A stretch of 12,894 nt of DNA from Rhodocyclales bacterium (GTDB lineage Bacteria; Pseudomonadota; Gammaproteobacteria; Burkholderiales; Rhodocyclaceae), in assembly GCA_021286885.1 (NCBI GenBank), contig JAJTBM010000049.1, positions 1 through 12,894 on the forward strand. The letters are read 5' to 3'. This document shows, one piece after another, positions 1 to 12,894 of this stretch. Every line of letters begins with the position of its first letter. The first letter of the stretch is position 1. The notes below the pieces were generated by a model, which was not told where the DNA came from, searched no databases, and was given only the letters and a program-made list of their open reading frames with translations. Position numbers and translations under genes: made by a program.

Positions 1-172
1 CCCAGAAATCCGGGTCGGCAAAGATGAAGGCAAAGGCCTCCAGGCCAATCTTGGCCCCGGGCATGAAGAAGGGGCTGGACAACAGGCTCTGGTAAAACAC
101 CAGGCCCAGCGGAAAGAAGACGGACAGGGCGAGCAGGGCCACCACCGCCCGTCTGGGCAATGTTTGCAACAT
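1..172 (-). CDS. ABC transporter permease, N-terminal fragment (cut by window edge)
   Basis: Only the first 57 codons lie in the window; the gene continues past position 1. The translation starts MLQTLPRRAVVALLALSVFF and continues with a hydrophobic helix at about residues 9-30, followed by a periplasmic-looking stretch (QSLLSSPFFMPG). A positively charged N-terminus before one long helix and then a loop is the usual opening of a binding-protein-dependent permease of the iron(III)/thiamine/phosphonate type. It reads in the same direction as the solute-binding protein gene, whose stop is 158 nt upstream, so the two should form one importer with the permease in the inner membrane. The ribosome binding site is weak (GGAAAA about 9 nt upstream). 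The ATP-binding subunit is not visible. The permease call rests on the helix pattern plus context; the substrate is unknown. Confidence 0.72.
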   Translation of the reverse strand, partial: MLQTLPRRAVVALLALSVFFPLGLVFYQSLLSSPFFMPGAKIGLEAFAFIFADPDFW

Positions 173-216
173 GGCAGGTTTTCCGGTCAGGACAAAAAAT
201 GGACGACAAGGCCCCG

Positions 217-275
217 CCCCACCGGCCAGGGCCGGGGGGAAACAGGGGGAAGCAGGCGCCAGCGGGGGGGCTGGC
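217..275 (-). other. Two GC-rich hairpins between the binding-protein and permease genes
   Basis: Two inverted repeats sit in the 158-nt gap between the binding-protein stop (331) and the permease start (172). The first, at 217-239, pairs CCGGCC with GGCCGG across a 2-nt gap, flanked by CCCC and GGGG. The second, at 258-275, pairs GCCAGC with GCTGGC around six identical bases. Neither is followed by a U-run in the minus direction, so they are not textbook intrinsic terminators. In importers of this kind, intercistronic stems often protect the abundant binding-protein message and lower downstream permease expression. That role here is inference from position. Confidence 0.4.
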
Positions 276-330
276 CTTCAGGGAAACTCTGGCGAGTTTG
301 GGTTTGGAATGTGGGGTGTGGGGTGCCGGA

Positions 331-1434
331 TCAGCGCCCCTTGAGGGCGGCGTTCCACTGGCGCAGGAAGTCCAAGCGCTTGGCCTGATCCAGATAGGTC
401 AAGAGACCCGTGCCGATGGGCACCGGGCGCAGGGCGTCCCCCAGCTGCTTGCGCAGGCCGGAAGCGGTGGTATCCCCCTCCACATCCGGGCGGATGGCGT
501 ACAGGTCGGCCTTGCTGGCGATGACTTCCTGGCCCCGCTTGGAGAGCACGAAATCCAGCCACAGCTTGGCCGCGTTGGGATGGCGGGCGTTCTTGGCGAT
601 GAACATCACCCGGGACAGCACCAGGGTGTAATCCTTGGGCAGCACGATGCCAATCGCCGGATCTTTCTGGGCCCGGGTCAGGGCGTAGGCGGCGTTCAGG
701 TTGTAGCCGATCAGGTTTTCGCCCGAGGCAATGCGCTCCATCATCGTCCCGGTGGCCCCCTGAACCTTGGCCTGGACGCCCCCCAGGGCCTTGATCAGAT
801 CATTGAACCCGGCCCCATTCACCTGCTTGTCCTGGGTGACCAGCATGAAGCCCACGCCGGATTTTTCCGGATCGTAGGTCGTCACCTTGCCCCGGTACTT
901 GTCGGCCTGGGTGGTGAGCAGCCGGATCAGGTCGGCGTGGCTCTGGGGCACATCGGCGGCAGGCACCAGGCGCTTGTTGTAGACGATCCCGATGGGCTCG
1001 TAGGTGGTGCCGAAGGCTTCGTTCTTCCAGTTAGCCCACTCGGGCAGGCGGGCGGTTTCTGCCGACTTGTGGGGCTGGGCATAACCATCGTTCACCAGCT
1101 TCACCTGCAGATCCATGGACGAAGACCAGGTCACATCCGCCGACGCGCCGGCAGCCGATTCGGAAATGAAGCGGTTGTACAGCTCGGTGGTGCTCATATT
1201 GCTGTACTCCACCTGAATCGCCGGGTAGAGGGTGCGGAAATCCCGGATCAGGTGATTGGCCTGCTCGTTGTCGGTGACGCCGTAAATCACCAGCTTGCCT
1301 TCCTTGTTGGCCGCCGCCACCAGCTCCGGCGTGCTCTGGGCGAAGCTGGCGCCGCTCCCCAGGGCACAGGCCAGCAAGGCAGCACCGGCTGCCAGACCAA
1401 AACGCCGCCGGGTGGGCTTGAAGATCGTGTTCAT
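331..1434 (-). CDS. ABC transporter periplasmic solute-binding protein (family 1, iron(III)/phosphonate-like)
   Basis: This is a 367-aa periplasmic binding protein for an ABC importer. The N-terminus MNTIFKPTRRRFGLAAGAAL is a signal peptide with a twin-arginine-like TRRRFG core, a hydrophobic segment to about residue 29 and a likely cleavage after ASFA (residue 32). The mature part opens with KEGKLVIYG and keeps typical binding-protein landmarks: TLYPAIQVEY, SADVTWSSSMD, GIVYNKRLV and, near the C-terminus, NARHPNAAKLWLDFVLS. Length and layout fit the SBP_bac_6/11-type ferric or phosphonate binders, but the tandem-tyrosine ferric ligand pair of FbpA is not evident, so the substrate stays open. 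The start at 1434 is chosen because AGGAG lies 9 nt upstream and the signal peptide begins there; the same frame stays open to 2232 only because it is antisense to the response regulator. It is divergent from a two-component system that probably regulates it. Confidence 0.88.
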   Translation of the reverse strand: MNTIFKPTRRRFGLAAGAALLACALGSGASFAQSTPELVAAANKEGKLVIYGVTDNEQANHLIRDFRTLYPAIQVEYSNMSTTELYNRFISESAAGASADVTWSSSMDLQVKLVNDGYAQPHKSAETARLPEWANWKNEAFGTTYEPIGIVYNKRLVPAADVPQSHADLIRLLTTQADKYRGKVTTYDPEKSGVGFMLVTQDKQVNGAGFNDLIKALGGVQAKVQGATGTMMERIASGENLIGYNLNAAYALTRAQKDPAIGIVLPKDYTLVLSRVMFIAKNARHPNAAKLWLDFVLSKRGQEVIASKADLYAIRPDVEGDTTASGLRKQLGDALRPVPIGTGLLTYLDQAKRLDFLRQWNAALKGR

Positions 1435-1443
1435 GGTGTTTGT

Positions 1444-1448
1444 CTCCT
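1444..1448 (-). promoter_or_regulatory. Ribosome binding site fixing the binding-protein start
   Basis: AGGAG on the minus strand lies 9 nt before the ATG at 1434. It decides the start against the much longer upstream open frame. Beyond it, 1449-1650 is the shared divergent promoter region; I found no pair of promoter boxes there that I would defend. Confidence 0.7.
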
Positions 1449-1650
1449 GATTTTTTTGTGAGTGTGGCCGCTCAAACCGCGCATCCCGCAACGCCGCCCG
1501 GCAGCCCATGGACTGCATGATTCTCCGGCTGGCTTTCGATTCGCTTTCAGCCCCGCAAGGCGCTAGGCTTCGCCCCACTGATCTGCCGGCCCGATCAAGC
1601 CCAGGCCGCCCAGACCGATACAAGGCCCCAACACAGCACAGAGCACACCC

Positions 1651-2331
1651 ATGCGCATCCTCCTTGCCGAAGATCACCCCGAGCTGGGCGAATGGCTCGC
1701 CAAATCCCTGCGCCAGGCCGGCTACGCGGTAGACGTGGCCGACCGGGGCGACCACGCCGAACACTTCCTGCAGAGCGAAAGCTACGATGGCCTGATCCTG
1801 GATCTGACCCTGCCCGGCAAGGACGGGCTGGAAGTGCTGCGCAACCTGCGGGGCCGGGGCTCCCGCATCCCCGTGCTGATCCTCACCGCCCGGGGCGCGG
1901 TGGATGACCGGGTGAAGGGCCTCAACTTGGGGGCCGACGACTATCTGGCCAAGCCTTTCGAGCTCAACGAACTGGAAGCCCGGCTGCGGGCCCTGCTGCG
2001 GCGCAGTGCGGGTTTCAACCCGGTGATCCGGGTCGGACGCCTGGATTTTGACACGGTGAGCCGCATGAGCAGCGTGGATAACCAGCCCCTGCCCCTCACC
2101 CCCCGGGAACTGGCCGTGCTCGAAGCCCTGCTGCTGCGGGCCGGGCGCCCCCTGTCCCGGGAAGCCCTGTTCGAAAAAGTGTTCAGCCTCGACCAGGACG
2201 CCCGGGCCGAGGCCATCGAAATCTATGTGCACCGGCTGCGCAAGAAACTCGAAGGCAGCGGCGTGCGCATCACCACCGTGCGCGGGCTGGGCTATATGCT
2301 GGGGCCCGAGGGCCCTGCCCCCGCCCCATGA
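1651..2331 (+). CDS. OmpR-family response regulator (TctD/QseB-like)
   Basis: This 226-aa protein is a cytoplasmic two-component DNA-binding regulator. Residues 1-115 form the receiver domain: acidic pair E7/D8 (LLAEDHPELG), phospho-acceptor D51 in LILDLTLPGKDG, conserved T79 in LILTARG and K101 in LAKPFELNELEARLRALLRR. Residues about 125-220 form the winged-helix DNA-binding domain, with LTPRELAVLEALL, the recognition-helix stretch EAIEIYVHRLRKKLE and the wing TTVRGLGYML. The length is standard for the family. Its stop overlaps the kinase start by 4 nt (ATGA), indicating translational coupling. No strong Shine-Dalgarno precedes the ATG. It is divergent from the ABC binding-protein gene, which is the obvious candidate target together with its own promoter; that is inferred from gene order. 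Confidence 0.95.
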   Translation: MRILLAEDHPELGEWLAKSLRQAGYAVDVADRGDHAEHFLQSESYDGLILDLTLPGKDGLEVLRNLRGRGSRIPVLILTARGAVDDRVKGLNLGADDYLAKPFELNELEARLRALLRRSAGFNPVIRVGRLDFDTVSRMSSVDNQPLPLTPRELAVLEALLLRAGRPLSREALFEKVFSLDQDARAEAIEIYVHRLRKKLEGSGVRITTVRGLGYMLGPEGPAPAP

Positions 2332-3722
2332 AGGCCGGCAGCCTCAAGCGCCACCAGAGCCTGTGGCTGGTGGGCATGCTGTCCTTGCTGCTGCTGGTGG
2401 ATGCGTGGTTCAGCTACGGCGACGCCCAGCAGACCGCCAACCACGCCTATGATCGCTCCCTCTCCGCCTCGGTGCGGGGGATTGCCGAGCGGGTGTACGC
2501 CACCGAAGACGAGATCGTGGTGGATGTGCCCTACTCCGCGCTGGAACTCTTCGAGGCAGGCAGCGCCGACCGGATCTATTACAACGTCCAAGTGCGGGGC
2601 GGGCGCCTCATCACCGGCTACGAACAGCTGCCCCTGCCCCCCGGCGAACCGGAATACAACAAGCCAGTGTTCTACGACGGGCTCTACAAGGGCGAGCCCC
2701 TGCGCCTGGGGGCCCTGGTCAAGCCTCTCTACCGGCCCGAGTTCCCCCATCCGGTGATGATCATCGTGGCGGAAACCACCAACGCCCGCCAAGACGTGGT
2801 GCAACGCCTTTTCCTGCGCGAATTTGCACGCAAGGCCCTAGTGATGGTGGCCGCCCTGGGCATCGTGCTGCTCGCCACCATCACCGCCCTGCGCCCCATC
2901 GACCAGCTGGGCCAAACCATACGCCAGCGCCCCGAGGACGACCTCACCCCCCTGGACGGGCGCCACGTGCCCGCCGAAGTCCAGCCCCTCGCCCAGGCCA
3001 TCAACCATCACCTGGCCCGCATCAGCCGCATGCTGGAAGCCCGCCGGCGCTTCATCACCGACGCCGCCCACCAGCTGCGCACCCCCCTTGCCGTGCTCAA
3101 GACCCAGGCCGAATACGCCCTGCGCCAAGACGACCCCGGCGAAACCCGCCACGCCCTAGGCGCCCTGCACCGCAGCCTGGGCCACGCCACCCGGCTCACC
3201 AACCAGCTGCTCTCCCTCTCCCGGGCCGAGGCGGTGAACGGAATGATGGTGGGCCTCAGCAGCGTGGATATGAACGCCCTGGCCCGGGAAGTGGTAATCG
3301 ACCTGCTGGTGCTGGCCGGCGAACGGGGCATAGACCTGGGCTTCGAAGGCGACACCCGCCCCTGCCGGGTCCACGGCCAGCCCCTGCTACTGCGGGAAAT
3401 GATCAGCAATCTGGTGGACAACGCCCTGCGCTACACCCCCGCCGGCGGAATGGTCACCGTGTCGGTCGACACCTGGAGCGGCCACCAGCGCCTGCGCGTC
3501 ATGGACAACGGCCCCGGCATTCCCCCGGAAGACCGGGCCTCCGTGTTCCAGCGCTTCTACCGCCTGCCCGGCCACAACCCCGCCGGCAGCGGCCTGGGCC
3601 TGGCCATCGTGCGCGAGATCGTGCTGAGCCACCAGGGCGAGATCGAACTCCACACCGCCCCCGAAGGCCAGGGCCTGGAAGCACGGGTGCTGCTGCCCGC
3701 CGAAGAGAGCCCGGCACACTGA
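2328..3722 (+). CDS. Sensor histidine kinase with 2CSK_N-type sensor region (TctE-like)
   Basis: This 464-aa inner-membrane kinase is the partner of the response regulator it overlaps. There are two transmembrane helices, at about residues 11-29 and 168-188, with a periplasmic sensor region of about 140 residues between them that resembles the 2CSK_N domain of TctE-type kinases (RSLSASVRGIAERV, then DRIYYNVQVRGGRLITGYE). The cytoplasmic part has the H-box with phospho-accepting H248 (AHQLRTPLAVLKTQAEYAL), the N-box NLVDNALRYTP (361-371), the G1 box DNGPGIP (393-399), an F-box-like FQRFYR and the G2 box GSGLGLAIVREI. All catalytic landmarks are present, so it should be active. TctE kinases normally control tripartite tricarboxylate transporters; here the neighbour is an ABC importer. 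The periplasmic domain may sense the same solute directly or through the binding protein (inference). Confidence 0.94.
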   Translation: MKAGSLKRHQSLWLVGMLSLLLLVDAWFSYGDAQQTANHAYDRSLSASVRGIAERVYATEDEIVVDVPYSALELFEAGSADRIYYNVQVRGGRLITGYEQLPLPPGEPEYNKPVFYDGLYKGEPLRLGALVKPLYRPEFPHPVMIIVAETTNARQDVVQRLFLREFARKALVMVAALGIVLLATITALRPIDQLGQTIRQRPEDDLTPLDGRHVPAEVQPLAQAINHHLARISRMLEARRRFITDAAHQLRTPLAVLKTQAEYALRQDDPGETRHALGALHRSLGHATRLTNQLLSLSRAEAVNGMMVGLSSVDMNALAREVVIDLLVLAGERGIDLGFEGDTRPCRVHGQPLLLREMISNLVDNALRYTPAGGMVTVSVDTWSGHQRLRVMDNGPGIPPEDRASVFQRFYRLPGHNPAGSGLGLAIVREIVLSHQGEIELHTAPEGQGLEARVLLPAEESPAH

Positions 3723-3755
3723 GGCAAACGCCGGAACCTGGCCGCCCTATCCCTT

Positions 3756-3773
3756 GTCCATGGCCCCATGGAC
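3756..3773. repeat. 18-bp perfect palindrome upstream of the photolyase cassette
   Basis: GTCCATGGCCCCATGGAC has perfect 8-bp arms around a 2-bp centre, 33 nt after the kinase stop and 86 nt before the DUF2256 start. The centre is too short for a good RNA loop and no U-run follows, so a dimeric-regulator operator is more plausible than a terminator. The regulator is unknown. A weak TTGTCC box overlaps the left arm, but no convincing -10 follows it. Confidence 0.4.
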
Positions 3774-3791
3774 TCATCAAACCCCCTCTTT

Positions 3792-3815
3792 CCACGCTCT
3801 CCACGCTCTCCACGC
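3792..3815. repeat. Short direct repeat, 2.7 copies of a 9-mer
   Basis: CCACGCTCT occurs twice in tandem, followed by the partial copy CCACGC. The repeat lies in the untranslated gap between the kinase and DUF2256 genes. It looks like simple slippage expansion; no function is indicated. Confidence 0.5.
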
Positions 3816-3858
3816 AACCACCGCCCGCCCCCGGGCCGGTGGCGCGTCGGCCTGCGCC

Positions 3859-4020
3859 ATGCGTCGTAAAGCCGATCTGCCCACCCGCATCTGCGCCTGC
3901 TGCGGACGCCCCTTTGCCTGGCGCAAGAAGTGGGCGGCCGTGTGGGACGAGGTGAAATACTGCTCCGAACGCTGCCGCCGCCAGCGCAAGGCTGGCCCCG
4001 CCCCCGAAGGTCGCCCATGA
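3859..4020 (+). CDS. DUF2256 family small zinc-finger-like protein
   Basis: This is a 53-aa basic protein of the DUF2256 family, which is widely found beside cryptochrome/photolyase genes and has no established biochemical role. The family signature is complete: LPTRICACCGRPFAWRKKW, then WDEVKYCSERCRRQRK. Four cysteines, C12-x2-C15 and C35-x3-C39, form a likely zinc-binding knuckle. The open frame extends upstream to a TTG at 3754, but that leader is low-complexity (HALHALHA comes from a DNA repeat), and family members begin just before the LPxxxC motif, so the ATG at 3859 is preferred even though no clear ribosome binding site precedes it. Its stop overlaps the photolyase start by 4 nt (ATGA). 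A role as cofactor or nucleic-acid-binding accessory to the photolyases is inference from this coupling. Confidence 0.88.
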   Translation: MRRKADLPTRICACCGRPFAWRKKWAAVWDEVKYCSERCRRQRKAGPAPEGRP

Positions 4021-5360
4021 ACACCCTCATTTACTGGTTCCGCCAGGATCTGCGGCTCCATGATCAGCCCGCCCTGGCCCGGGCCCTCCAGCACGCCCGC
4101 GCCACCGGGGCCGCCCTGCTGCCGGTGTGCTGCGTGCCCCCCGACACCGACACCCCCTACGGTTTTGCCCGGGTCGGGCCCCACCGGCGTGCATTCGAGG
4201 CCCAGACCCGGGCCGCTCTGGCCGCCCGCCTGCGCGCACTGGGCAGTGATCTGCTGATCCTGGCGGGCGCAGCCGCCCAGGTGCTGCCCCGGCTGGCCGC
4301 CGCCACGGGCGCAACCCAGATCTGGTGCGAAGCGATCCGCGCCCCCTGGGAAGCAGCCGAAGGGGCCGGACTGAAGCTGGAGTGCCACTGGCATTCCAGC
4401 CTGCTCGACCCGGCAGACCTACCCTTTGAGCCGGAAGCGGTGCCCACGGTATTTACCGCTTTCCGCCAGGCCGTCGAAGGGGCCGGCGTGCGCCCTGCGC
4501 CCCCCCTGCCCACCCCAGACCAGATCCCCGGCTGGGAAGGCGGGGCCGAGCCGCGCTGGTGCGGCCAAGCCTGGCCCGCGTGGCAGGCCCGCTGGGCGGC
4601 CCAGGGGCTGGTGCTCGACACCCCCGCCCCCGTCCCCTGCCCACCGGCCCATCCCCATAGCCTGTTCCCCTACGCCCACCCCACCTGCCAGGGGGGCGAG
4701 GCAGCGGCCCAGGCCCATTGGGAAACCTATCTGGCCCAGGGCCTGCCCCACAGCTACAAGGCCACCCGCAATCAAGTCATGGGCTTTGAGGCGTCCAGCA
4801 AGCTCTCACCCTGGCTGGCCACGGGCGCCCTCTCGCCGCGCTGGGCATGGGCCCGCCTGCAGGATTTCGAAGCCCGGCACGGGGCCAGCGCAAGCAGCTA
4901 TTGGCTCTGGTTCGAGCTGCTGTGGCGCGACCATTTTCGCTGGCTGCACTGGCGTCACGGGGCGGCGCTGTACCGGGCCCGGGGCCTCTCCGAACGCCCG
5001 CTACCCACATCGGGGCCCGATCAGGATCAAGCCTTTGCCCGCTGGTGCCAGGGCGCCACCGGCGAAGCCCTGGTGGATGCCGGCATGCGCGAGCTGGCCG
5101 CCACCGGCTTTCTGAGCAACCGGCTGCGCCAGATCGTGGCCAGTTATCTGATCAACGACCTGGGCGGCGACTGGCGTGCCGGCGCCGCCTGGTTTGAAGC
5201 CCAACTGGTGGATTTTGATGTGTATAGCAACCAGGGCAACTGGCTCTACATCGCCGGGCGGGGCACCGACCCCCGGGGCGGGCGGCGTTTCGACCCCCTG
5301 CGCCAGGGGCGCGAACATGACCCGGATGGCCGCTACCGGGCCCGCTGGGGGGCTACATGA
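4017..5360 (+). CDS. DASH-type cryptochrome/photolyase
   Basis: This 447-aa flavoprotein belongs to the cryptochrome/DNA photolyase superfamily, DASH subgroup. Known members use light and FAD to repair cyclobutane pyrimidine dimers, mainly in single-stranded DNA, and some act as photoreceptors. The N-terminal Rossmann-like antenna domain opens with TLIYWFRQDLRLHDQPAL. The C-terminal FAD-binding helical domain carries SYKATRN (246-252), SSKLSPWLATGALSPR (260-275), FELLWRDHFRW (299-309), TGFLSNRLRQIVASYL (363-378) and the DASH-like NQGNWLYIAGRGTDPRGGR (405-423). The start at 4017 replaces an in-frame upstream one because conserved sequence begins there and it overlaps the DUF2256 stop. The protein ends directly after DPDGRYRARW, a little earlier than many DASH proteins, with its stop overlapping the next start by 4 nt. 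Confidence 0.94.
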   Translation: MNTLIYWFRQDLRLHDQPALARALQHARATGAALLPVCCVPPDTDTPYGFARVGPHRRAFEAQTRAALAARLRALGSDLLILAGAAAQVLPRLAAATGATQIWCEAIRAPWEAAEGAGLKLECHWHSSLLDPADLPFEPEAVPTVFTAFRQAVEGAGVRPAPPLPTPDQIPGWEGGAEPRWCGQAWPAWQARWAAQGLVLDTPAPVPCPPAHPHSLFPYAHPTCQGGEAAAQAHWETYLAQGLPHSYKATRNQVMGFEASSKLSPWLATGALSPRWAWARLQDFEARHGASASSYWLWFELLWRDHFRWLHWRHGAALYRARGLSERPLPTSGPDQDQAFARWCQGATGEALVDAGMRELAATGFLSNRLRQIVASYLINDLGGDWRAGAAWFEAQLVDFDVYSNQGNWLYIAGRGTDPRGGRRFDPLRQGREHDPDGRYRARWGAT

Positions 5361-6913
5361 ACACGCCTGTGCCGGTGCACACCCTGCGGCTGGTGCTGGG
5401 GGATCAGCTCAACCCGCTGCACCGCTGGTGGCAGCAGCCCGACCCGGGCATCCTGCATGTGTTGATGGAGGTGCGCAGCGAAACCGACTACGTGCGCCAC
5501 CACGCCCAGAAGATCATCGCCCTGTTTGCGGCCATGGAAGCCTTTGTGGGCGCCCGCCGGGCCGAAGGGCACCGGATGCGCCACGTACGCATCGACGACC
5601 CGTCCAATCGCCAGTCGATCTGCGCCAATCTGGAGGCCCTCCAGGCCCATTACCAGGCCCCCCGCATCGAATACCAGGCCCCGGACGAATGGCGGCTGGA
5701 TCAAGCCCTGGCCGCGTGGAGCGCCCGCATGGAGGCCCAGGGCGTGACGGTGGAGATGGTCGATAGCGAGCACTTCCTCGCCCCCCGGGATGCGGTGGGC
5801 CGCTTCTTTGCCCAGCGGCGCGAGTGGCGCATGGAGCACTTCTACCGGGCCATGCGCCAGCAATGGCAGGTGCTGCTGGATGCCCGGGGCAAGCCCGAAG
5901 GCGGCCAGTGGAACTTCGATCAGGAGAACCGCAAGCGCTGGCCCGGCACCCCACCCGAGCCCGCCGACCTGCGCCCGCGCCACGATCACCGGGCGATCTG
6001 GGCCCGCATCCAGGCCGCCGGGGTAGACAGCTTCGGCCAGCCCTGCGCCGAGGCCCTGCGCTGGCCCCTGGACCGGCGCGAAGCCCTCGTCCAGCTGGAT
6101 GACTTCATCGCCCACGGCCTGCCCCATTTTGGCGACTACCAGGATGCGCTTTCGGCAAGCGCCCCGCGCCTGTTCCACAGCCTGCTGTCGTTTGCCCTCA
6201 ACACCAAGATGCTCCACCCCCGGGAGGTGATCCAGCGGGCAGAAGATGCCTGGCGGGCGGGCACCGCGCCGCTACCGGCCGTGGAAGGCTTCATCCGCCA
6301 GATTCTGGGCTGGCGCGAATACGTGCGCGGCGTGTATTGGGCGCAGATGCCGGACTATGCCGAGCACAACTTCTTCGGCCACACCCGGCCCCTGCCCGGC
6401 TGGTTCTGGACGGGCACCACCCGGATGGCCTGCCTGGCCCGGGCGGTGGGGGATTCTCTGGCCCACGCCTACGCCCACCACATCCAGCGCCTGATGGTGA
6501 TCAGCAACTTTGCGCTGCTGGCCGGGCTGGACCCGGCGGGGGTGCATCGCTGGTATCTGGGCGTCTATATCGACGCCTTCGAGTGGGTGGAGTTGCCCAA
6601 CACCCTGGGCATGGGCCAGTTTGCCGATGGCGGCCTGCTCGCTTCCAAACCCTATGTGAGCAGCGGCGCCTACCTCGACCGGATGGGCGACCACTGCCGC
6701 CAGTGCAGCTATGCGGTACGCCAGCGCACCGGCCCCGGGGCCTGCCCCTTCAACGCGCTGTATTGGGATTTTTTCATGACCCACCGCCCCCGCCTGGAAG
6801 GCAACCCCCGGCTGGGGCTGGTGTTCCGGCAGGTGGACAAGATGGGGGATGCAGAACGGGCGGCGCTGCGGGATTACGCGGCCGCCCTGCGGGCAAACAT
6901 CGAAACTTTGTAA
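5357..6913 (+). CDS. Iron-sulfur bacterial cryptochrome/photolyase (FeS-BCP, PhrB-type, DPRP family)
   Basis: This 518-aa protein belongs to the deoxyribodipyrimidine photolyase-related family, whose characterised members (Agrobacterium PhrB, Rhodobacter CryB) hold FAD, 6,7-dimethyl-8-ribityllumazine and a [4Fe-4S] cluster; PhrB repairs (6-4) photoproducts. The family opening HTLRLVLGDQLNP is present. Four cluster cysteines can be assigned: C359 (MACLARAV), C447 and C450 (HCRQCSY) and C463 (GACPFNALYWDF). The spacings of 88, 3 and 13 equal those I recall for PhrB C350/C438/C441/C454. The HHIQR stretch at 374-378 matches the PhrB His-His-x-x-Arg repair motif with the same offset of nine. The GQWNFDQENRKRWP segment is also typical. 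The full-length, intact frame is coupled to the DASH gene by a 4-nt overlap and ends 8 nt before a convergent gene. Confidence 0.95.
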   Translation: MNTPVPVHTLRLVLGDQLNPLHRWWQQPDPGILHVLMEVRSETDYVRHHAQKIIALFAAMEAFVGARRAEGHRMRHVRIDDPSNRQSICANLEALQAHYQAPRIEYQAPDEWRLDQALAAWSARMEAQGVTVEMVDSEHFLAPRDAVGRFFAQRREWRMEHFYRAMRQQWQVLLDARGKPEGGQWNFDQENRKRWPGTPPEPADLRPRHDHRAIWARIQAAGVDSFGQPCAEALRWPLDRREALVQLDDFIAHGLPHFGDYQDALSASAPRLFHSLLSFALNTKMLHPREVIQRAEDAWRAGTAPLPAVEGFIRQILGWREYVRGVYWAQMPDYAEHNFFGHTRPLPGWFWTGTTRMACLARAVGDSLAHAYAHHIQRLMVISNFALLAGLDPAGVHRWYLGVYIDAFEWVELPNTLGMGQFADGGLLASKPYVSSGAYLDRMGDHCRQCSYAVRQRTGPGACPFNALYWDFFMTHRPRLEGNPRLGLVFRQVDKMGDAERAALRDYAAALRANIETL

Positions 6914-6921
6914 GCTGGCCC

Positions 6922-7872
6922 TCAGCCCACCACAATCTTGGCCTTGCTGCGGAACTGGCTTTCGCGCCCCAGCACCAGACAGCCAAATTCATCCAGCAAC
7001 TGGCCATTGACCGCATCCAGCGGGAGGCTGAAACGGGTCACGCCGAAGCGCTCCAGATTGCGGGCCTCGATCAGGATCTGATCCTGATCCGGGTCGGCCC
7101 GCCACACCACCTGCACCGGGATTTCCTCGGCGAAGGCGAAGCGGATGCGGTTGATCTGGTTCAGCTCGTTGCGCTGGATCTGCACCTCCAGCTTGAAGCC
7201 CAGATCAATCAGCACCTTGCGCACCCGCTCGGCGGAGGCCGGGTCGAACTGATCCACCTGGCGCTGGCCCCGGCCCTTGAGGGTATAGGCAAACCCCGCC
7301 TGAAGGATGTGGCCCCCATCCCCCTCAGAAGCGCTGCGGTGATCAGCCCCCCCCTTGGCCCAGACCAGGCCGCTAAAAGCATCGTGCTTGTCGAACAGGT
7401 AATAGGTGCGGGGGATTTCGGGTTGCAGCACATTAAGCTGGCGGGTGAACTCGCGCAGATAGTCGGTGACCTGGCGCAGCACATCGGAACAGCGCTTGCG
7501 CCGGGCCGCGAGCAGCTCGGCGCTGGCCTGGGTTTGCTGGCGCTGCTCGGTTTCCTTGCGCAACTGGGCCAGCAAGCCCCCACCCAGCAGGCTGCTGGTG
7601 CCAGCCTCGGGAGCGGACACCTGGGCCGGGCGGGAGGACGCGTGCAGCGCGTGGGAGGCCTGGGGCGTGGCCGCCGGGGCGGCGGGCACTTCAGGCACTT
7701 CGGGCACATCCTTGACCGTGGGGAAGGATGTCTGGGAGCTGCGCAGGCCGGTGTAGCGCCCATCCACCGCCGCCACCCGGCGCTTGGCGGCTTCCAGGTC
7801 GAACGTGGCAATGTCGGCCAGCAGGGCTTCGGCCTGGGCATCCAGAGGAGAAGGGGCTTGGTTCGACGACAC
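6922..7872 (-). CDS. Uncharacterised 316-aa protein, GTG start
   Basis: I do not recognise a named family. The protein appears cytoplasmic: there is no signal peptide or membrane helix. Residues 1-45 are helical and acidic. Residues 50-95 form a Pro/Ala-rich linker (VPEVPEVPAAPAATP). Residues about 100-150 are charged and probably coiled-coil (LLAQLRKETEQRQQTQASAE). Residues 155-316 look like a folded alpha/beta domain with PRTYYLFDKHDAFSGLVWAKGG, VRKVLIDLGFKLEVQIQRN and LERFGVTRFSLPLDAV. The start must be non-ATG: the frame has no methionine codon, and an in-frame TGA lies seven codons before the GTG at 7872. Codon use matches the neighbours, so it is likely a real gene. It converges on the photolyase operon with an 8-nt gap and has its own candidate promoter. 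Confidence 0.8.
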   Translation of the reverse strand: MSSNQAPSPLDAQAEALLADIATFDLEAAKRRVAAVDGRYTGLRSSQTSFPTVKDVPEVPEVPAAPAATPQASHALHASSRPAQVSAPEAGTSSLLGGGLLAQLRKETEQRQQTQASAELLAARRKRCSDVLRQVTDYLREFTRQLNVLQPEIPRTYYLFDKHDAFSGLVWAKGGADHRSASEGDGGHILQAGFAYTLKGRGQRQVDQFDPASAERVRKVLIDLGFKLEVQIQRNELNQINRIRFAFAEEIPVQVVWRADPDQDQILIEARNLERFGVTRFSLPLDAVNGQLLDEFGCLVLGRESQFRSKAKIVVG

Positions 7873-8044: not shown

Positions 8045-8058
8045 TGCACTCTTCCAGA

Positions 8059-8239
8059 TCCGACGGGGGCCGCCCGATCCATGCAGGCGGCCCAGGGAAG
8101 TCCGGTACAACGGCTTACAAACCCGTGATTCCGGCGCAGCCCCCGCTGCTGTAGGCCCGACGACACACCCTCATGCCACTGGCCCCAGGCCGGGAAGGCG
8201 GTGTCAAGTACGAAGGCAAGCCAGAAGACCGCCGCCGGA
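8059..8239 (+). promoter_or_regulatory. Cobalamin (B12) riboswitch aptamer
   Basis: The conserved cobalamin-riboswitch core is present in order. P1 pairs TCCGACGG (8059-8066) with CCGCCGGA (8232-8239), with one internal mismatch. P2 pairs GGGCCGCC (8067-8074) with GGCGGCCC (8086-8093) perfectly. AGGGAAGTCCGGT follows (8094-8106), then ATTCCGGCGCAGCCCCCGCT (8128-8147) with GCTGTAGGC after it, CCACTGG (8176-8182), GGGAAGG (8192-8198) and the 3-prime box AAGCCAGAAGACCGCC (8218-8233). Such aptamers bind adenosyl- or other cobalamins and usually switch off downstream B12 uptake or synthesis genes. It lies 164 nt before the cobN-like start on the same strand. Confidence 0.95.
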
Positions 8240-8403
8240 CCTTAAACGGCATTCGTGCATGACGAAGGCCAGCGCGACGCGGCCCCGGGGTGTGGGCATG
8301 ACGCCCGCCCCAGAGCCCCGCCCCCTGGGCGTGCCCTGCGGCCGCCCGTCTCCCGCCCCCTGCTGCCCTGGGCTGGCACTTCTGGCAGAGACGGCGTGGC
8401 ACC
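8240..8403 (+). other. Leader between riboswitch and cobN-like gene (expression platform)
   Basis: This 164-nt stretch has no credible gene. It is very GC-rich and contains several self-complementary short runs (for example CCCCGGGG near 8282-8290 and repeated CCCTGGG), but no stem followed by a U-run. A Rho-independent off-switch is therefore not evident; control of translation initiation or Rho-dependent termination is more likely (inference). The ribosome binding site of the downstream gene is weak, with a purine run AGAGACGG about 8 nt before the ATG. Confidence 0.5.
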
Positions 8404-11400
8404 ATGACTTTCTTTTCTTCCTTTGAATACCGCCCCCGGGTCGGATGGCTGGCGGCCCTGCTGCCCGCGCTCCTGCGGGTGATGCTGATGATGCTGGTGC
8501 TACCCCCAGCCCAGGCAGCCACCCTGTTTGCCGTCGTCACCGACCGGGCGGCCCCCGACGCCATGGAGGCCGCCCGCCTGCACCTGCGCCAGCACCCCCG
8601 GGATCAGGTACGGCTGCGCACCCCCGCCCAGCTCATGGCCGCCAGCGACAAACAGTTGGCCCAATGGCTCAACGCCGATGCGGTGCTGGCCGTCTCGGTG
8701 TTTGGCGACCCGGCCCGGCGCCTGCTTGAAGCCCTGCCCGCCAGCCGCGCAGTGCGCATTCTGGCCCTCAACGGAGAACAGCGCCTCACCCTGCAAAGCC
8801 GCAGTGCCCTGGGCCGTCTGGCGGGCACCGAGCCAGAGCTCTTACGCCAGCTGGCGGGCGAGGCACCGCCGCCCGAAGCCCTCGCCCGGGCACGACAATC
8901 CCCCGCCACCGCCGAATGGCTGGCCGCCCGCCAGCACTGGCAGGCCGGTGGCCCGGACAACCTGGCCCGGGTTTTCAGCCACGTACTCGATGGCCACCCC
9001 CTGCCCGCGCCCCGGCCCGAACCCACCCTGCGTCTGCGCGCAGGCGATGCCGAACGGCTGGATGACGCCGCCTGGGGCGCCGCCCTGCTGCCTTCTGGCC
9101 CGGCGCTGGTGGTGCTGGATCTATCCAACACCGAATCAGGCACCGCCGCTGCCCTGTGCGCCGAATCGCGCCGCCAAGGGCTGGCCTGCGCCCAAGTGCT
9201 CACCCGCTGGGGCAGCGCCTCCCGCACGGCCATCGAACGCCTGCCAGAACTGCTGGCCCCGGCCCGACCTGTGGGGCTGGTGGTGGTTCAGGATTTTGTG
9301 GTGGGTGCTGCCGAGAACCGCGAAGCCGTCACCGAGGCGCTCCAGCGCCTCGATCTGCCGGTGTTCAAAGCGATTCGCCTGACCGAGCGGACGGCCACCC
9401 AATGGCGCCTGTCCCCCGAAGGCCTGCCGGTGGATTCAGTCCAGTACCGGGTAGCCCTGCCCGAGTTGCAAGGGATTGGCCAGCCCATTGTGGTGGCCGC
9501 CGCCGGCCCCACCCGGGCCGATCCCCTCACCGGCATCGAAACCCGGCAGAGCCAGCCCATCCCCGAAGAAATGAGCCGCCTGATTGCCCGGGCCCGGCGC
9601 TGGCAACAGCTCCAGCACCTGCCCAACCAGGACAAGCGCATCGCGCTGATCTATTACAACCATCCGCCCGGGCGCCAGAACATCGGTGCCGACAATCTGG
9701 ACGTGCCCGCCTCCCTGTTCGCCATTCTCCAGCGGCTGAAAGCCGAGGGCTACACAGTGGGGGATCTGCCCCCCAGCCCCGAAGCCCTGCTGGAGCAAAT
9801 CATGGCCCGGGGGGTCAATCTGCCTGAAGACCGGGCCGCTCTGGCCGAGCTGGCCCAACACAGCCAAACCCTTGAGGGCGCCGCTTACGGAGACTGGTTT
9901 GCCCGCCTGCCCGAGCGGGTGCGCCTGGAAATGGTGTCCGGCCCCCTGGGGCGGCTCCATGCCGAACTACTGGAGGCCGAAGCCCGGGGCGAACGCAGCC
10001 TGGGGCGCAAGCGTTTGGAAGCGGTGATGAAAGAACTGCATCACCTGGCCGAAGGCGCCGACCACCCCCGCCGCCAGGACGCCATTGCCGGCCTGCATCA
10101 CCTGGAACAGGGCTATCTGGACTGCCTGGGCGAACACCCACGCCAGCCCTGCAGCCGCCTCACCCGCCAGGTGGCCCGCCTTGTGGATTACCGGATCGAA
10201 GGCCTCCGGGGCTGGGGCCCGGCTCCGGGACGGGTGATGGTGCATGGCGGGCGCCAGATCATCCCCGGCCTGCGCTTTGGCAACATCTTTGTGGGCCCCC
10301 AGCCTCCCCGGGGCTGGGAGGTGGATGAAGAATTGCTCCACGCCAACACCAGCGTGCCACCGCCCCACCAGTTTCTGGGCTTCTACCACTGGCTGCGGGA
10401 CGAATTCCGGGCCGATGCAGTCGTGCACCTGGGGCGCCACTCCACCTACGAATTTCTGCCCGGCAAGGCCGTGGGCCTCACCGCCGACGACTACCCCAGC
10501 CTGGTTGCCAGCGATCTCCCCGGGATCTACCCCTACATCGTGGACGGCGTGGGCGAAGGCATTCAGGCCAAGCGCCGAGGGCTGGCGGTCATCGTGGACC
10601 ACCTCACCCCGCCCCTGGCGGCCACTCCGCTTTACGACCAGCTCCTGAGCCTGCGCCAGGTGGTGGAAAGCTTTGAGGCCGCCAGCAGCGAAAGCCTCAA
10701 GGCCCAAGCCGCCCGCCGGATGCGGGAACAGGTGATCGCCCTTAACCTGCGCACCGAACTGGAAGCGAGCATGGCCGACGTGCTGGAGGTACGCGGCATC
10801 GGCTTTGAAGAAGCCGACGACGATCTGCTCGCCCACGAAGTGGGCCACTACCTCACCAAGCTGCAAGAGAAGTTCATGCCCCACGGCCTGCATGTGTTTG
10901 GGCAGGACTGGACGCCCGAATCCCTGCAACTCATGGCCGACTCCATGGGCCAGATGGCCGGCGGTTACACCCCCGAAATCGCCCGGCGCCTGGCCGACTC
11001 CCCGCGCCTGGAAATGGCCGGGCTACTGGCCGGGCTGGCCGGGCGCTACCTTCCCCCGGGCAAGGGCAACGACCCCCTGCGCTCCCCCGAGGCGCTGCCC
11101 ACCGGGCGCAATTTTCATGCGGTGGATGGCGACATCCTGCCCACCCGGCTCGGCTACGAACTGGGCCGCACCCTGGCCACCCAGGCCCGCCCGCGCCAGA
11201 CCCAGGACGCCAGCGATGCGGTGATCCTGTGGGCCTCCGATGCGGTGCGGGATGAAGGGGCCATGCTGGGCTTCTGCCTCGCCCTGATGGGGGCCGAGCC
11301 CGTCTGGAATGCCCGGGGCATCGTCACCGATGTGCGCCTGCTCGATGCCCCCCGGCGCGACGTGCTCATCACCACCTCTGGCCTGTTCCGGGATCTCTAC

Positions 11401-12108
11401 CCCAACCTGCTCAACCAGGTGGATCGAGCCGGACGCCTCGCCCTGGCCGCCTCCGCCCAGCCACTCCTGGCCCAGGCCCCCGAACTGGCCCCGGCCCTGG
11501 ATGCAGCCCTGGCCCCCATCCCCGGCGCCCCCCGAGGCGATCAGCCCTTAGCCGACAATCTGCTGGCCCGCATGTGGCTGATGCGTACCCGCCAACTCCT
11601 GAGCCGGGGCCTCCCACTCCAGGAAGCCGGCCCTGCCGCCAGCCTGCGCGTGTTTGGCGATGCGCCCGGCGCCTACAGCGCGGGGGTGAACCGGCTCGCG
11701 GAGCGCTCCGGCGCCTGGCAGACCCGGGACGAACTGGGACGCGTTTATCTGCGCCACATGGGGCATGCCTACGGGCTGGACGCCAGCGGCGAGGCCGCAC
11801 ATCTGGCCTTTGAAACCGCCCTGGCCGGGGTTGCTCGCAGCTACCACGGGCGCGCCAGCAATCTTTATGGCCTCCTCGACAACAACGACGCCTTCGACTA
11901 TCTGGGCGGCCTCTCCCTGGGGGTGGAAACCCTCACCGGACAGCGCCCCGAAGGCCTCAGAATGGATCAAGCCCCTGATGAAACACGGCTACGCCGGTGC
12001 CCGCACCATGGGCCAGGAGTTTCTGGAGAACCTATGGGGCTGGCAAGTCACCCGCCCCGAGCTGATCCAGCCCTGGGCCTGGGACGAAGTGAAAGCCACC
12101 TACTTTGA
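8404..12108 (+). CDS. cobN: Exported CobN-like chelatase subunit, frame-disrupted (first 1184 codons native)
   Basis: The open frame gives 1234 aa, but only about the first 1184 residues (to about 11955) read as CobN; the last 50 are out of frame. CobN/BchH/ChlH proteins bind tetrapyrroles and handle metal insertion. Landmarks here are DKRIALIYYNHPPGRQNIGA, the metal/corrin-site region HLGRHSTYEFLPGK (H675, H679, E683), LPGIYPYIVDGVGEGIQAKR followed by VIVDHLTPPL, and NNDAFDYLGGLSLGVETL. The N-terminus has an arginine-flanked hydrophobic segment (residues 14-33) and a PPAQA cleavage site near residue 38, so the protein should be exported. Cytosolic CobN of the CobNST complex lacks this. It lies under a cobalamin riboswitch and upstream of an ExbB-like gene. 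The symbol denotes family only; a periplasmic chelatase or dechelatase of the HmuS type is an alternative to cobalt insertion. Confidence 0.85.
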   Translation: MTFFSSFEYRPRVGWLAALLPALLRVMLMMLVLPPAQAATLFAVVTDRAAPDAMEAARLHLRQHPRDQVRLRTPAQLMAASDKQLAQWLNADAVLAVSVFGDPARRLLEALPASRAVRILALNGEQRLTLQSRSALGRLAGTEPELLRQLAGEAPPPEALARARQSPATAEWLAARQHWQAGGPDNLARVFSHVLDGHPLPAPRPEPTLRLRAGDAERLDDAAWGAALLPSGPALVVLDLSNTESGTAAALCAESRRQGLACAQVLTRWGSASRTAIERLPELLAPARPVGLVVVQDFVVGAAENREAVTEALQRLDLPVFKAIRLTERTATQWRLSPEGLPVDSVQYRVALPELQGIGQPIVVAAAGPTRADPLTGIETRQSQPIPEEMSRLIARARRWQQLQHLPNQDKRIALIYYNHPPGRQNIGADNLDVPASLFAILQRLKAEGYTVGDLPPSPEALLEQIMARGVNLPEDRAALAELAQHSQTLEGAAYGDWFARLPERVRLEMVSGPLGRLHAELLEAEARGERSLGRKRLEAVMKELHHLAEGADHPRRQDAIAGLHHLEQGYLDCLGEHPRQPCSRLTRQVARLVDYRIEGLRGWGPAPGRVMVHGGRQIIPGLRFGNIFVGPQPPRGWEVDEELLHANTSVPPPHQFLGFYHWLRDEFRADAVVHLGRHSTYEFLPGKAVGLTADDYPSLVASDLPGIYPYIVDGVGEGIQAKRRGLAVIVDHLTPPLAATPLYDQLLSLRQVVESFEAASSESLKAQAARRMREQVIALNLRTELEASMADVLEVRGIGFEEADDDLLAHEVGHYLTKLQEKFMPHGLHVFGQDWTPESLQLMADSMGQMAGGYTPEIARRLADSPRLEMAGLLAGLAGRYLPPGKGNDPLRSPEALPTGRNFHAVDGDILPTRLGYELGRTLATQARPRQTQDASDAVILWASDAVRDEGAMLGFCLALMGAEPVWNARGIVTDVRLLDAPRRDVLITTSGLFRDLYPNLLNQVDRAGRLALAASAQPLLAQAPELAPALDAALAPIPGAPRGDQPLADNLLARMWLMRTRQLLSRGLPLQEAGPAASLRVFGDAPGAYSAGVNRLAERSGAWQTRDELGRVYLRHMGHAYGLDASGEAAHLAFETALAGVARSYHGRASNLYGLLDNNDAFDYLGGLSLGVETLTGQRPEGLRMDQAPDETRLRRCPHHGPGVSGEPMGLASHPPRADPALGLGRSESHLL

Positions 12109-12691
12109 CGACAAGCAGAAACTCGGCCTGCCCAAGTTTCTGGAACAAGGCCCGAATGCCCACGTCAAGGCCCAGATGCTGGCAATTTTCATGGTGGCAG
12201 CCCACAAGGGCTTCTGGCAGACCGATCCGGCCACCCTGCGCCGCATGGGCGGCGAACTGGCCCGCCTGGTGGGACGTAACGGTCTGCCCGGCAGCGGCCA
12301 CACCGCCCCCAACCATCCCATGTGGGCCTGGCTGGCGCCCCAGCTCGACGCCGCCGACGCCCAAGCCCTCAACACCCGCCTGGAGCGGGCCCGAGGCGAA
12401 GACGCCAGCCCCCAGGCATCATCCGCATCCCAACCCCGGCCCCAGCCTTTGAACCAGGCCCGCACCCGCACGGCCCCCACGCACACGCCCCAAGCCGCCC
12501 CGGCCAACGCCCCGCCGCCGCCCCGTTACTCCACCCTCACCCGCCGGCCACCGGCTACCCAGCCCGCAGCCCTGCCCAGTGCCCCCCCGGAAACCCTGAC
12601 CAGCCTGGCCCTGCTGTGCCTGCTGCTGGGCCTGGGCTGGAGCCGGCGCCCCCTTCCTTCGACCTCACCCCGGAAATTCACCGATGAATGA
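11957..12691 (+). pseudogene. cobN: C-terminal part of the cobN-like gene, shifted into another frame
   Basis: From about 11957 the CobN-like sequence resumes in the next reading frame: SEWIKPLMKHGYAGARTMGQ, FLENLWGWQVTRPELIQPW and VGRNGLPGSGHTAPNHPMW, all typical of the CobN C-terminus. It runs 244 codons to the stop at 12689-12691. After the chelatase domain come a Pro/Ala/Gln-rich linker (about 12400-12590) and a hydrophobic segment SLALLCLLLGLGW (about 12603-12640) followed by RR, a single C-terminal membrane anchor. There is no start codon with a ribosome binding site at the frame change, so this part is probably not made unless the break is a sequence error. Joined to the upstream part it would give roughly 1430 aa. 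The end overlaps the next gene by 8 nt. Confidence 0.8.
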
Positions 12692-12894
12692 CACTCACCC
12701 CCTGGGCTGGCTGCACCAGCTCGTTTCCTGGCTGCTCACCCCAGCCCTGCTGACCCTCGCCCTGGCCTGCGCCATCGCCCTGGCCGAAGCAGGCCTTGCC
12801 CTGGGCGAACGCCTGTGGGGCCTGCGCCGCCTTGCCGCCCGGGGCGACCTGAGCCTGATCCAGCGCATCGCCCGTCACCGGCTGGAACGGGCCG
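12684..12894 (+). CDS. Probable MotA/TolQ/ExbB-type proton channel protein, N-terminal fragment
   Basis: The first 70 codons are visible and the gene runs off the window. The translation begins MNDTHPLGWLHQLVSWLLTP and has one strong helix at about residues 15-37 (ALLTLALACAIALAEAGLAL), then an amphipathic arginine-rich cytoplasmic stretch (ERLWGLRRLAARGDLSLIQR). This is the topology of the first helix of ExbB/TolQ-like proteins, which use the proton gradient to energise periplasmic processes. The start codon lies inside the last codons of the cobN-like gene, with an 8-nt overlap, so the two are translationally coupled. Membrane-anchored CobN-like proteins are known to be followed by an ExbB-like gene and a DUF2149 gene; the latter would be expected just beyond the window. 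The call depends partly on that context. Confidence 0.65.
   Translation, partial: MNDTHPLGWLHQLVSWLLTPALLTLALACAIALAEAGLALGERLWGLRRLAARGDLSLIQRIARHRLERA

Follow-up and report, generated by a model that had tools for sequence, protein, structure and literature searches.

What would a bacterium do with a CobN-like protein that carries export signals, is preceded by a cobalamin (vitamin B12) riboswitch and is followed by a gene for an ExbB-like protein? The locus raising this question comes from a Zoogloea-like metagenome-assembled genome (MAG; assembly G000, 3.44 Mb in 611 contigs, 80.5% complete), and the window analysed here is one entire contig of it (C9, 12 894 nt), which ends inside the exbB-like gene. 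We propose that the region specifies a B12-repressed, inner-membrane-anchored and periplasm-facing class I tetrapyrrole chelatase of the BtuS type, which would be driven by protons and would act on imported corrinoids in salvage. The architecture of the gene set is firm; the functional proposal as a whole is held with middling confidence. An earlier sequence-only reading had already described a periplasm-facing machine of this kind, and none of the three outcomes set against it beforehand, namely a neighbour that is not ExbB-like, placement within CobN with the signal peptide an artefact, or an operon with cobS/cobT, was encountered.

The btuS gene set and its riboswitch

The CobN-like gene, btuS, encodes a member of the CobN/Mg-chelatase family and extends over 8404..12691 (positions are those of the window, + strand unless stated otherwise). 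Its context was analysed in the best 80 of 170 matching relatives, with flanks of up to 10 kb; genes were called there by a codon-usage script and then clustered, and their starts are approximate. The sequence-only reading had pointed to an overlapping ExbB-like gene and, beyond the end of the window, to DUF2149 and a TonB receptor. Genes for an ExbB-like and a DUF2149 protein are found downstream of btuS in 78 of the 80 loci (in the remaining two, L025 and L035, the contig stops within btuS), and the gap between btuS and the exbB-like gene is 60 nt or less in 70 of these 78. In an aligned subset, PF01618 was matched by 25/25 ExbB-like proteins (threshold E 1) and PF09919 by 25/25 DUF2149 proteins. 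In the window itself, the start of an ExbB/TolQ-like gene (12684..12894) overlaps the btuS stop, and the gene runs off the end of the contig. The resulting 70-amino acid fragment matched no Pfam or NCBIfam family; it shares 77% identity with the beginning of the ExbB-like protein of Zoogloea oleivorans (L009:14353-14787), which does match PF01618 (33.3 bits). TonB receptor genes are present in the relatives' loci as well, in 46 out of 80.

The predicted riboswitch was confirmed. A cobalamin aptamer (RF00174) occupies 8046..8251, covers the full model (1–189; cmscan, 86.2 bits, E 1.5e-20) and lies 152 nt from the btuS start. For the relatives, a profile was built from 18 Rfam hits; in 12 loci and the window it recovers 20/21 Rfam hits at E < 1e-3 with zero extras, and it replaced a regular-expression finder that was dropped because 53 of its 70 matches had no Rfam counterpart. 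With this profile, a riboswitch is found upstream of btuS, on the same strand, in 73/80 loci, and in 48 of them at 700 nt or less.

The claim that no ATPase-subunit operon accompanies btuS also stood up. Searched at E 1e-5 with the CobW and ChlI of L086 and the CobT-like protein from L120, the 80 loci gave no ChlI-, CobT-chelatase- or CobW-like gene, and the positive controls were recovered (here and below, the chelatase CobS was not searched for).

As assembled, btuS of the window is read in two frames, from 8404 to ~11957 and then to 12691; PF02514 is matched over 8404–12108 with 697 bits, and by the C-terminal part in the next frame (11765–12691) with 61 bits. The frame change results from an 89-nt gap at ~11957, seen on comparison with six intact copies from Zoogloea. 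In their best segment, the Zoogloea loci that match best are 74–79% identical to the window, and btuS is unbroken in those examined; the deletion is either an assembly artefact or the mark of a pseudogene.

Export signals, phylogeny and active site of BtuS

The window protein begins with a predicted Sec-type signal peptide (8404..8517), with a 12-residue hydropathy peak of 2.53 and cleavage placed by eye after AQA (PPAQA, followed by AT). Towards its end a hydrophobic stretch follows a Pro-rich linker (12596..12640) and, judging from its sequence, is probably an inner-membrane anchor; its 18-residue peak of 1.51 falls narrowly below the cut of 1.55 set for homologues over their last 70 residues. 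By this crude hydropathy rule, applied to BtuS proteins of more than 1300 amino acids, the N-terminal cut was passed by 58/78 BtuS and 15/17 HmuS-like proteins versus 0/7 CobN and 0/5 ChlH, and the C-terminal cut by 75/78, 15/17, 0/7 and 0/5, respectively. Several of the N-terminal failures in BtuS resemble misplaced starts by eye. The idea that the signal peptide is an artefact is countered by the N-terminal counts, and the exported, membrane-anchored protein of the sequence-only reading is upheld, with the C-terminal peak of the window just under the cut.

The phylogeny places BtuS outside cytosolic CobN, as the sequence-only reading requires. A quick LG+G4 tree was built from 68 rows, with 34 of the 80 loci standing for BtuS and the Shimodaira–Hasegawa-like approximate likelihood ratio test (SH-aLRT) as the sole measure of support. 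In it, the BtuS rows form one clade together with a Marinobacter plasmid copy, L154 (SH-aLRT 100, stem 0.80). The window protein is represented in the tree by those of four Zoogloea loci (L009, L010, L015 and L049; 75–77% identical). Seventeen proteobacterial HmuS-like, 7 CobN and 5 ChlH proteins each form a clade of their own (SH-aLRT 100), and CobN plus ChlH are split from all exported types (SH-aLRT 99); the positions of the long rows L155–L158 are unsure. These group labels rest on the PDB match of one member each: L086 to CobN 9uk9 (1307 bits), L087 to ChlH 4zhj (931 bits) and L094 to HmuS 9d26 (405 bits). The BtuS of Z. oleivorans is roughly equidistant from ChlH (373), HmuS (367) and CobN (334).

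The active site points to a chelatase with an altered pocket. The motif HFG(T/A)HG is described as strictly conserved across the chelatase superfamily (PMC12583661). Its BtuS version, HLGRHST in the window (10426..10446), follows the pattern HxGRHS[T/I], which is found in 78/78 BtuS proteins (>1300 amino acids) and in 0/17 HmuS-like, 0/7 CobN and 0/5 ChlH proteins. HxGRHST would therefore serve as a signature separating BtuS-type proteins from CobN; L154, inside the BtuS clade, has YVGRHST. The residues corresponding to H538, E542 and E577 of HmuS do not vary across the four groups (BtuS, 35/35 rows), the one corresponding to H534 is kept in 34/35 BtuS rows (Tyr in L154), and E542 and E577 align with positions altered in the ChlH entries 6ytj, 6yt0 and 6ytn. 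Out of 112 columns conserved in the four groups, 67 are identical in all and 14 differ in BtuS alone. Besides the Gly of the superfamily motif, replaced by Ser in 35/35 BtuS rows, BtuS-only changes comprise Ala at S1014, Phe at Q1027 and, near H506, a His displaced by one position. As far as alignment can tell, the chemistry residues are retained in BtuS and the pocket is rebuilt. Since BtuS shares 7 of the 112 columns with HmuS-like proteins only and 3 with CobN only, the pocket gives no pointer to a corrin through likeness to CobN.

The same residues bear on a pure transport role, in which BtuS would bind corrinoids without metal chemistry and hand them over, driven by the ExbB-like/DUF2149 pair, from the outer-membrane receptor to an inner-membrane transporter. 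The replacement of the motif Gly in every row speaks for such a role, as does the linkage to TonB receptors and to transporters of the BtuC/BtuF and 8c7p types described below; the invariant catalytic Glu and His, which mere binding would not need, speak against it. We consider it unlikely.

A haem de-chelatase, i.e. an HmuS acting for iron that happens to be B12-controlled, would fit the resemblance of the gene set to hmu operons and the clear homology to HmuS in the PDB. Against it stand the separate BtuS clade, the B12 riboswitch upstream and the segment taken as domain IV, which measures 41–57 amino acids in BtuS versus 92–134 in HmuS-like proteins (68–80 in ChlH and 127–142 in CobN); the Met-rich domain IV insertion of HmuS alone has 120 residues (PMC12583661), longer than this entire segment in BtuS. 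Of the His-538/His-1209 cation site of HmuS, only the His-538 equivalent is kept: His-1209 is Asp in 35/35 BtuS and 7/7 CobN rows, but also in 16/17 HmuS-like rows, so that this residue alone is not decisive. Furthermore, at least 14 of the 51 genomes sampled below carry a second, HmuS-like copy (a further PF02514 match in G032 was left out of the classification), in one case beside a gene for a ChaN haem-binding protein. This explanation is very unlikely, and BtuS as an HmuS orthologue was rejected on the separate clade, the active-site residues and the short domain-IV segment.

Corrinoid salvage and the proposed mechanism

Genes of corrinoid uptake or salvage were labelled in 52 of the 80 loci, among them the TonB receptors of the 46 loci mentioned above, CobO in 26 and CbiA in 23. 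The labels of the clusters TonB-A, TonB-B, CobO, CbiA, BluB, ABC ATPase, CobU, BtuF and BtuC come from scanned representatives (that of BluB scanned as 'Nitroreductase' only); CbiB, CobD, CbiP, PepSY, CobC and cobalamin synthase CobS/CobT were labelled by eye. A gene of ~189 amino acids is found in 10 loci, and one member matches PDB 8c7p, a 'Cobalamin ABC transporter' (9e-56). Twelve loci (e.g. L009:15586-17667 and L014:15462-17561) hold a TonB receptor family whose one scanned member scores better as a siderophore receptor than as BtuB; in several loci this receptor gene has its own cobalamin riboswitch and adjoins the DUF2149 gene. In L012, L017, L023, L026 and L033, a TonB receptor gene and a gene for a PepSY-type membrane protein (by eye) lie downstream of the btuS set, a hint of a reduction step in the periplasm.

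B12 synthesis was surveyed in 51 btuS genomes, i.e. the window's own and 50 belonging to the 80 loci, a few or more of them incomplete MAGs. The corrin-ring synthesis gene cbiC is present in 11 and absent from 40. Since these 40 keep btuS, the common role of BtuS is not ring synthesis. Ten of the 11 cbiC-positive genomes have cbiD, a marker of early cobalt insertion (in Zoogloea L015, genes for CbiM, CbiX, CbiD and CbiG lie downstream of the btuS set), and in the 11th, from Azotobacter (G048), CobN adjoins a gene for ChlI. All 11 thus possess another route of cobalt insertion, which argues that biosynthetic cobalt insertion is not the role of BtuS either; a part for BtuS in making B12 de novo was rejected on this ground, and the corresponding element of the sequence-only reading, cobalt insertion as a de novo step, fails with it. 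A biosynthetic cobaltochelatase replacing CobNST would agree with the homology to CobN and with the scarcity of the chelatase CobT family, which is matched in just 6/51 genomes (5 above cut-off, 35–97 bits), in none from Zoogloea and always on a contig other than that of btuS. In the window's own genome no CobT was found, and the matches listed include only weak ones to TIGR02442; strong ChlI/D-type matches occur, among those listed, in at least 2/51 genomes. Given the export of BtuS in addition to the distribution of cbiC and cbiD, this explanation is contradicted in the present sample and is extremely improbable.

The lack of cbiC in 40 genomes also bears on cobalt scavenging, in which BtuS would work in the periplasm on an imported carrier of cobalt (a cobalt porphyrin, a corrinoid or a metallophore), strip off the metal and leave the freed ion for the cell to import. 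HmuS, which takes iron from haem (PMC12583661), offers a precedent; modules of this kind controlled by zinc (PA1922–1925; PMC4542158) and set among hyp genes in Runella suggest one module per metal; and in Zoogloea L015 the CbiM gene lies just downstream. However, genomes without cbiC would hardly need free cobalt for making B12, and the operon partners are corrinoid salvage genes. Cobalt scavenging is accordingly a doubtful candidate.

Salvage, the setting that we favour, agrees with the presence of CbiA in 37 of the 40 cbiC-less btuS genomes. Control genomes were drawn from 139 members of the class other than the window's, 120 of which lack cbiC and BtuS. The BtuS type of control genomes was read from a split match pattern, and the counts were made by hand and are uncorrected for kinship and B12 use. 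On hand sorting, 9–10 of the 120 have an NF002204 match reaching profile position 419–420; the other matches we take to be of the siroheme-amidating DsrN type. The contrast is therefore 37/40 versus ~9/120 after sorting or 51/120 raw.

The ExbB-like and DUF2149 proteins are taken, with moderate confidence, for an ExbB/ExbD-like stator. The model of the ExbB-like protein (145 amino acids; predicted local distance difference test score 91) has three long helices (2–51, 54–95 and 99–144), and ExbB or TolQ chains make up the whole of its top 45 Foldseek hits. In DUF2149, Asp37 is invariant (25/25) within its single N-terminal membrane helix ('NLVDVMLVF'), which resembles that of ExbD; when a DUF2149 profile was compared with 15 ExbD proteins, this Asp was aligned with the ExbD Asp, at a score of 29.4 versus at most 21.6 for 40 block-shuffled decoys.

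These elements can be arranged into a scheme. When corrinoid is scarce, the riboswitch would permit production of BtuS, the ExbB-like protein and DUF2149. Corrinoids would reach the periplasm through B12-regulated TonB receptors, and the central cleft of BtuS would close on them. Protons flowing through the ExbB-like/DUF2149 stator may then power the conformational work for which the cytosolic relatives use CobST or ChlID and ATP. At its metal centre the corrinoid would be acted on (removal, insertion and exchange being candidates), passed to BtuFCD or the 8c7p-type transporter, and delivered to CbiA, CobO and CbiP. Use of the proton gradient, and a corrinoid rather than haem as substrate, had both been put forward in the sequence-only reading; their support is contextual. 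If this scheme holds, a proton gradient drives tetrapyrrole metal chemistry outside the cytoplasm. It would also explain why a 'cobaltochelatase' is kept in many organisms without corrin-ring synthesis, an annotation that wrongly implies B12 production. One specific form of it, a periplasmic cobaltochelatase driven by the proton motive force that would insert or exchange the metal of metal-free or wrongly metallated environmental corrins, is improbable to our mind; if true, it would let CbiA, CobO and CbiP finish such corrins, provide a B12 route for organisms unable to build the corrin ring and be a class I metal chelatase in which an ExbB/ExbD-like rotary stator takes the place of an AAA+ ATPase as the source of power.

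Several observations weigh against the proposal. Removing cobalt from corrins is kinetically difficult, an argument against simple de-metallation of B12, and no biochemical datum was found for the BtuS clade. Regarding the stator, the best Foldseek E-value of the ExbB-like model is 0.003, with none below 0.001; the match probability between the DUF2149 and ExbD profiles is just 39%, and a DUF2149 profile search of the PDB gave no ExbD match. As to context, 28 of the 80 loci have no recognised corrinoid gene within the flanks examined, and 7 have no upstream riboswitch on the btuS strand (L051, L055, L057, L066, L073, L077 and L083); in L051, L066 and L077 one lies just upstream on the opposite strand, and L055 is too near the contig start to show one. 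No exbB-like or DUF2149 gene is annotated beside btuS on the Marinobacter plasmid (L154). Finally, the CbiA control is weak, since 51 of the 120 comparison genomes have some NF002204 match.

The remaining genes of the window are ordinary neighbours. They encode a two-component system (a response regulator and a 2CSK_N kinase), a DASH cryptochrome, a deoxyribodipyrimidine photolyase-related protein and a periplasmic binding protein (1651–3722, 4017–6913 and, on the − strand, 331–1461). A 316-amino acid protein encoded at 6922–7872 (−) has no Pfam or NCBIfam match; a lookalike of its gene occupies the equivalent position in Zoogloea L007 (by eye).

Known systems and a shared module

The name BtuS was given to a third type of CobN, distinguished from CobN and from ChlH (Rodionov 2003, as quoted in PMC6460266), and the window protein is CobN-related and apart from both in the same way. 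The published work on BtuS that was found concerns haem-iron use in Bacteroides and proteomics of Methanosarcina (PMC10846266). The idea of an exported CobN-like chelatase is thus not wholly new, being preceded by BtuS and by HmuS (PMC12583661). New here are the link to ExbB/DUF2149 in nearly all loci, the HxGRHST signature and the salvage-gene context; in a literature search with most subscription journals outside its coverage, no paper on the riboswitch–BtuS–ExbB–DUF2149 set in Proteobacteria was recognised.

Similar gene sets occur with other metals. In Pseudomonas aeruginosa, the operon PA1922–PA1925 combines genes for a TonB receptor, a CobN-like protein, an Exb-like protein and a hypothetical protein, and its role is given as undetermined (PMC4542158; see also PMC13083405 for this Zur-controlled set). 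It differs from the btuS set in its Zur/zinc control, and the likeness is one of description. Plasmid pSZ77/pGLOV01 of Trichlorobacter (Geobacter) lovleyi carries CobN near TonB/ExbB in a genome without CobST (PMC3403914). As with btuS sets, TonB, ExbB, DUF2149 and CobN genes are grouped there beside a corrinoid gene, BzaF; its CobN (L155) falls outside the BtuS clade. In Aureibacter (L157) a like gene set occurs with HmuY. On the Runella plasmid pRUNSL01 (L156), hypF and hypC/D/E flank genes for a TonB receptor, a 'urease accessory protein', ExbB, DUF2149 and CobN, probably a nickel-linked version of the module. Zoogloea L007 holds an HmuS-type CobN-like/ExbB/DUF2149 set (1–4092) together with the ChaN haem-binding gene, ~6 kb upstream of its B12 set (9980–15160). 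We infer that one CobN-like/ExbB-like/DUF2149 module has been refitted to different metals; if so, the same module would serve iron/haem, zinc, nickel and B12 by swapping receptor and regulator.

The two closest points of comparison are the cytosolic chelatases and HmuS. CobN of CobNST and ChlH/BchH share with BtuS the PF02514 body and the conserved Glu and His of the cleft. They differ in forming separate clades, in having no terminal hydrophobic stretches and in being cytosolic and ATPase-driven (PMC7689651). BtuS, with its own clade, its export-type termini and loci devoid of CobT or ChlI/D partners, does not belong to the CobN of CobNST class. HmuS of Bacteroides thetaiotaomicron (hmuYRSTUV; PDB 9d26), a proven haem de-chelatase (PMC12583661; for HmuS of Porphyromonas gingivalis, see PMC13227078), is, like BtuS, an exported and anchored class I chelatase homologue. 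The hmu operons, as described for Porphyromonas and Prevotella (PMC10434189), likewise hold TonB receptor, ExbB-like and DUF2149 genes, but in them one further gene separates hmuS from the exbB-like gene. HmuS belongs to a haem/iron system, in which it has the haem ligands Met-79 and His-254 in its head and neck and releases iron from haem in an NADH-dependent manner. It possesses a His-1209 and a long domain-IV insertion that are absent from BtuS.

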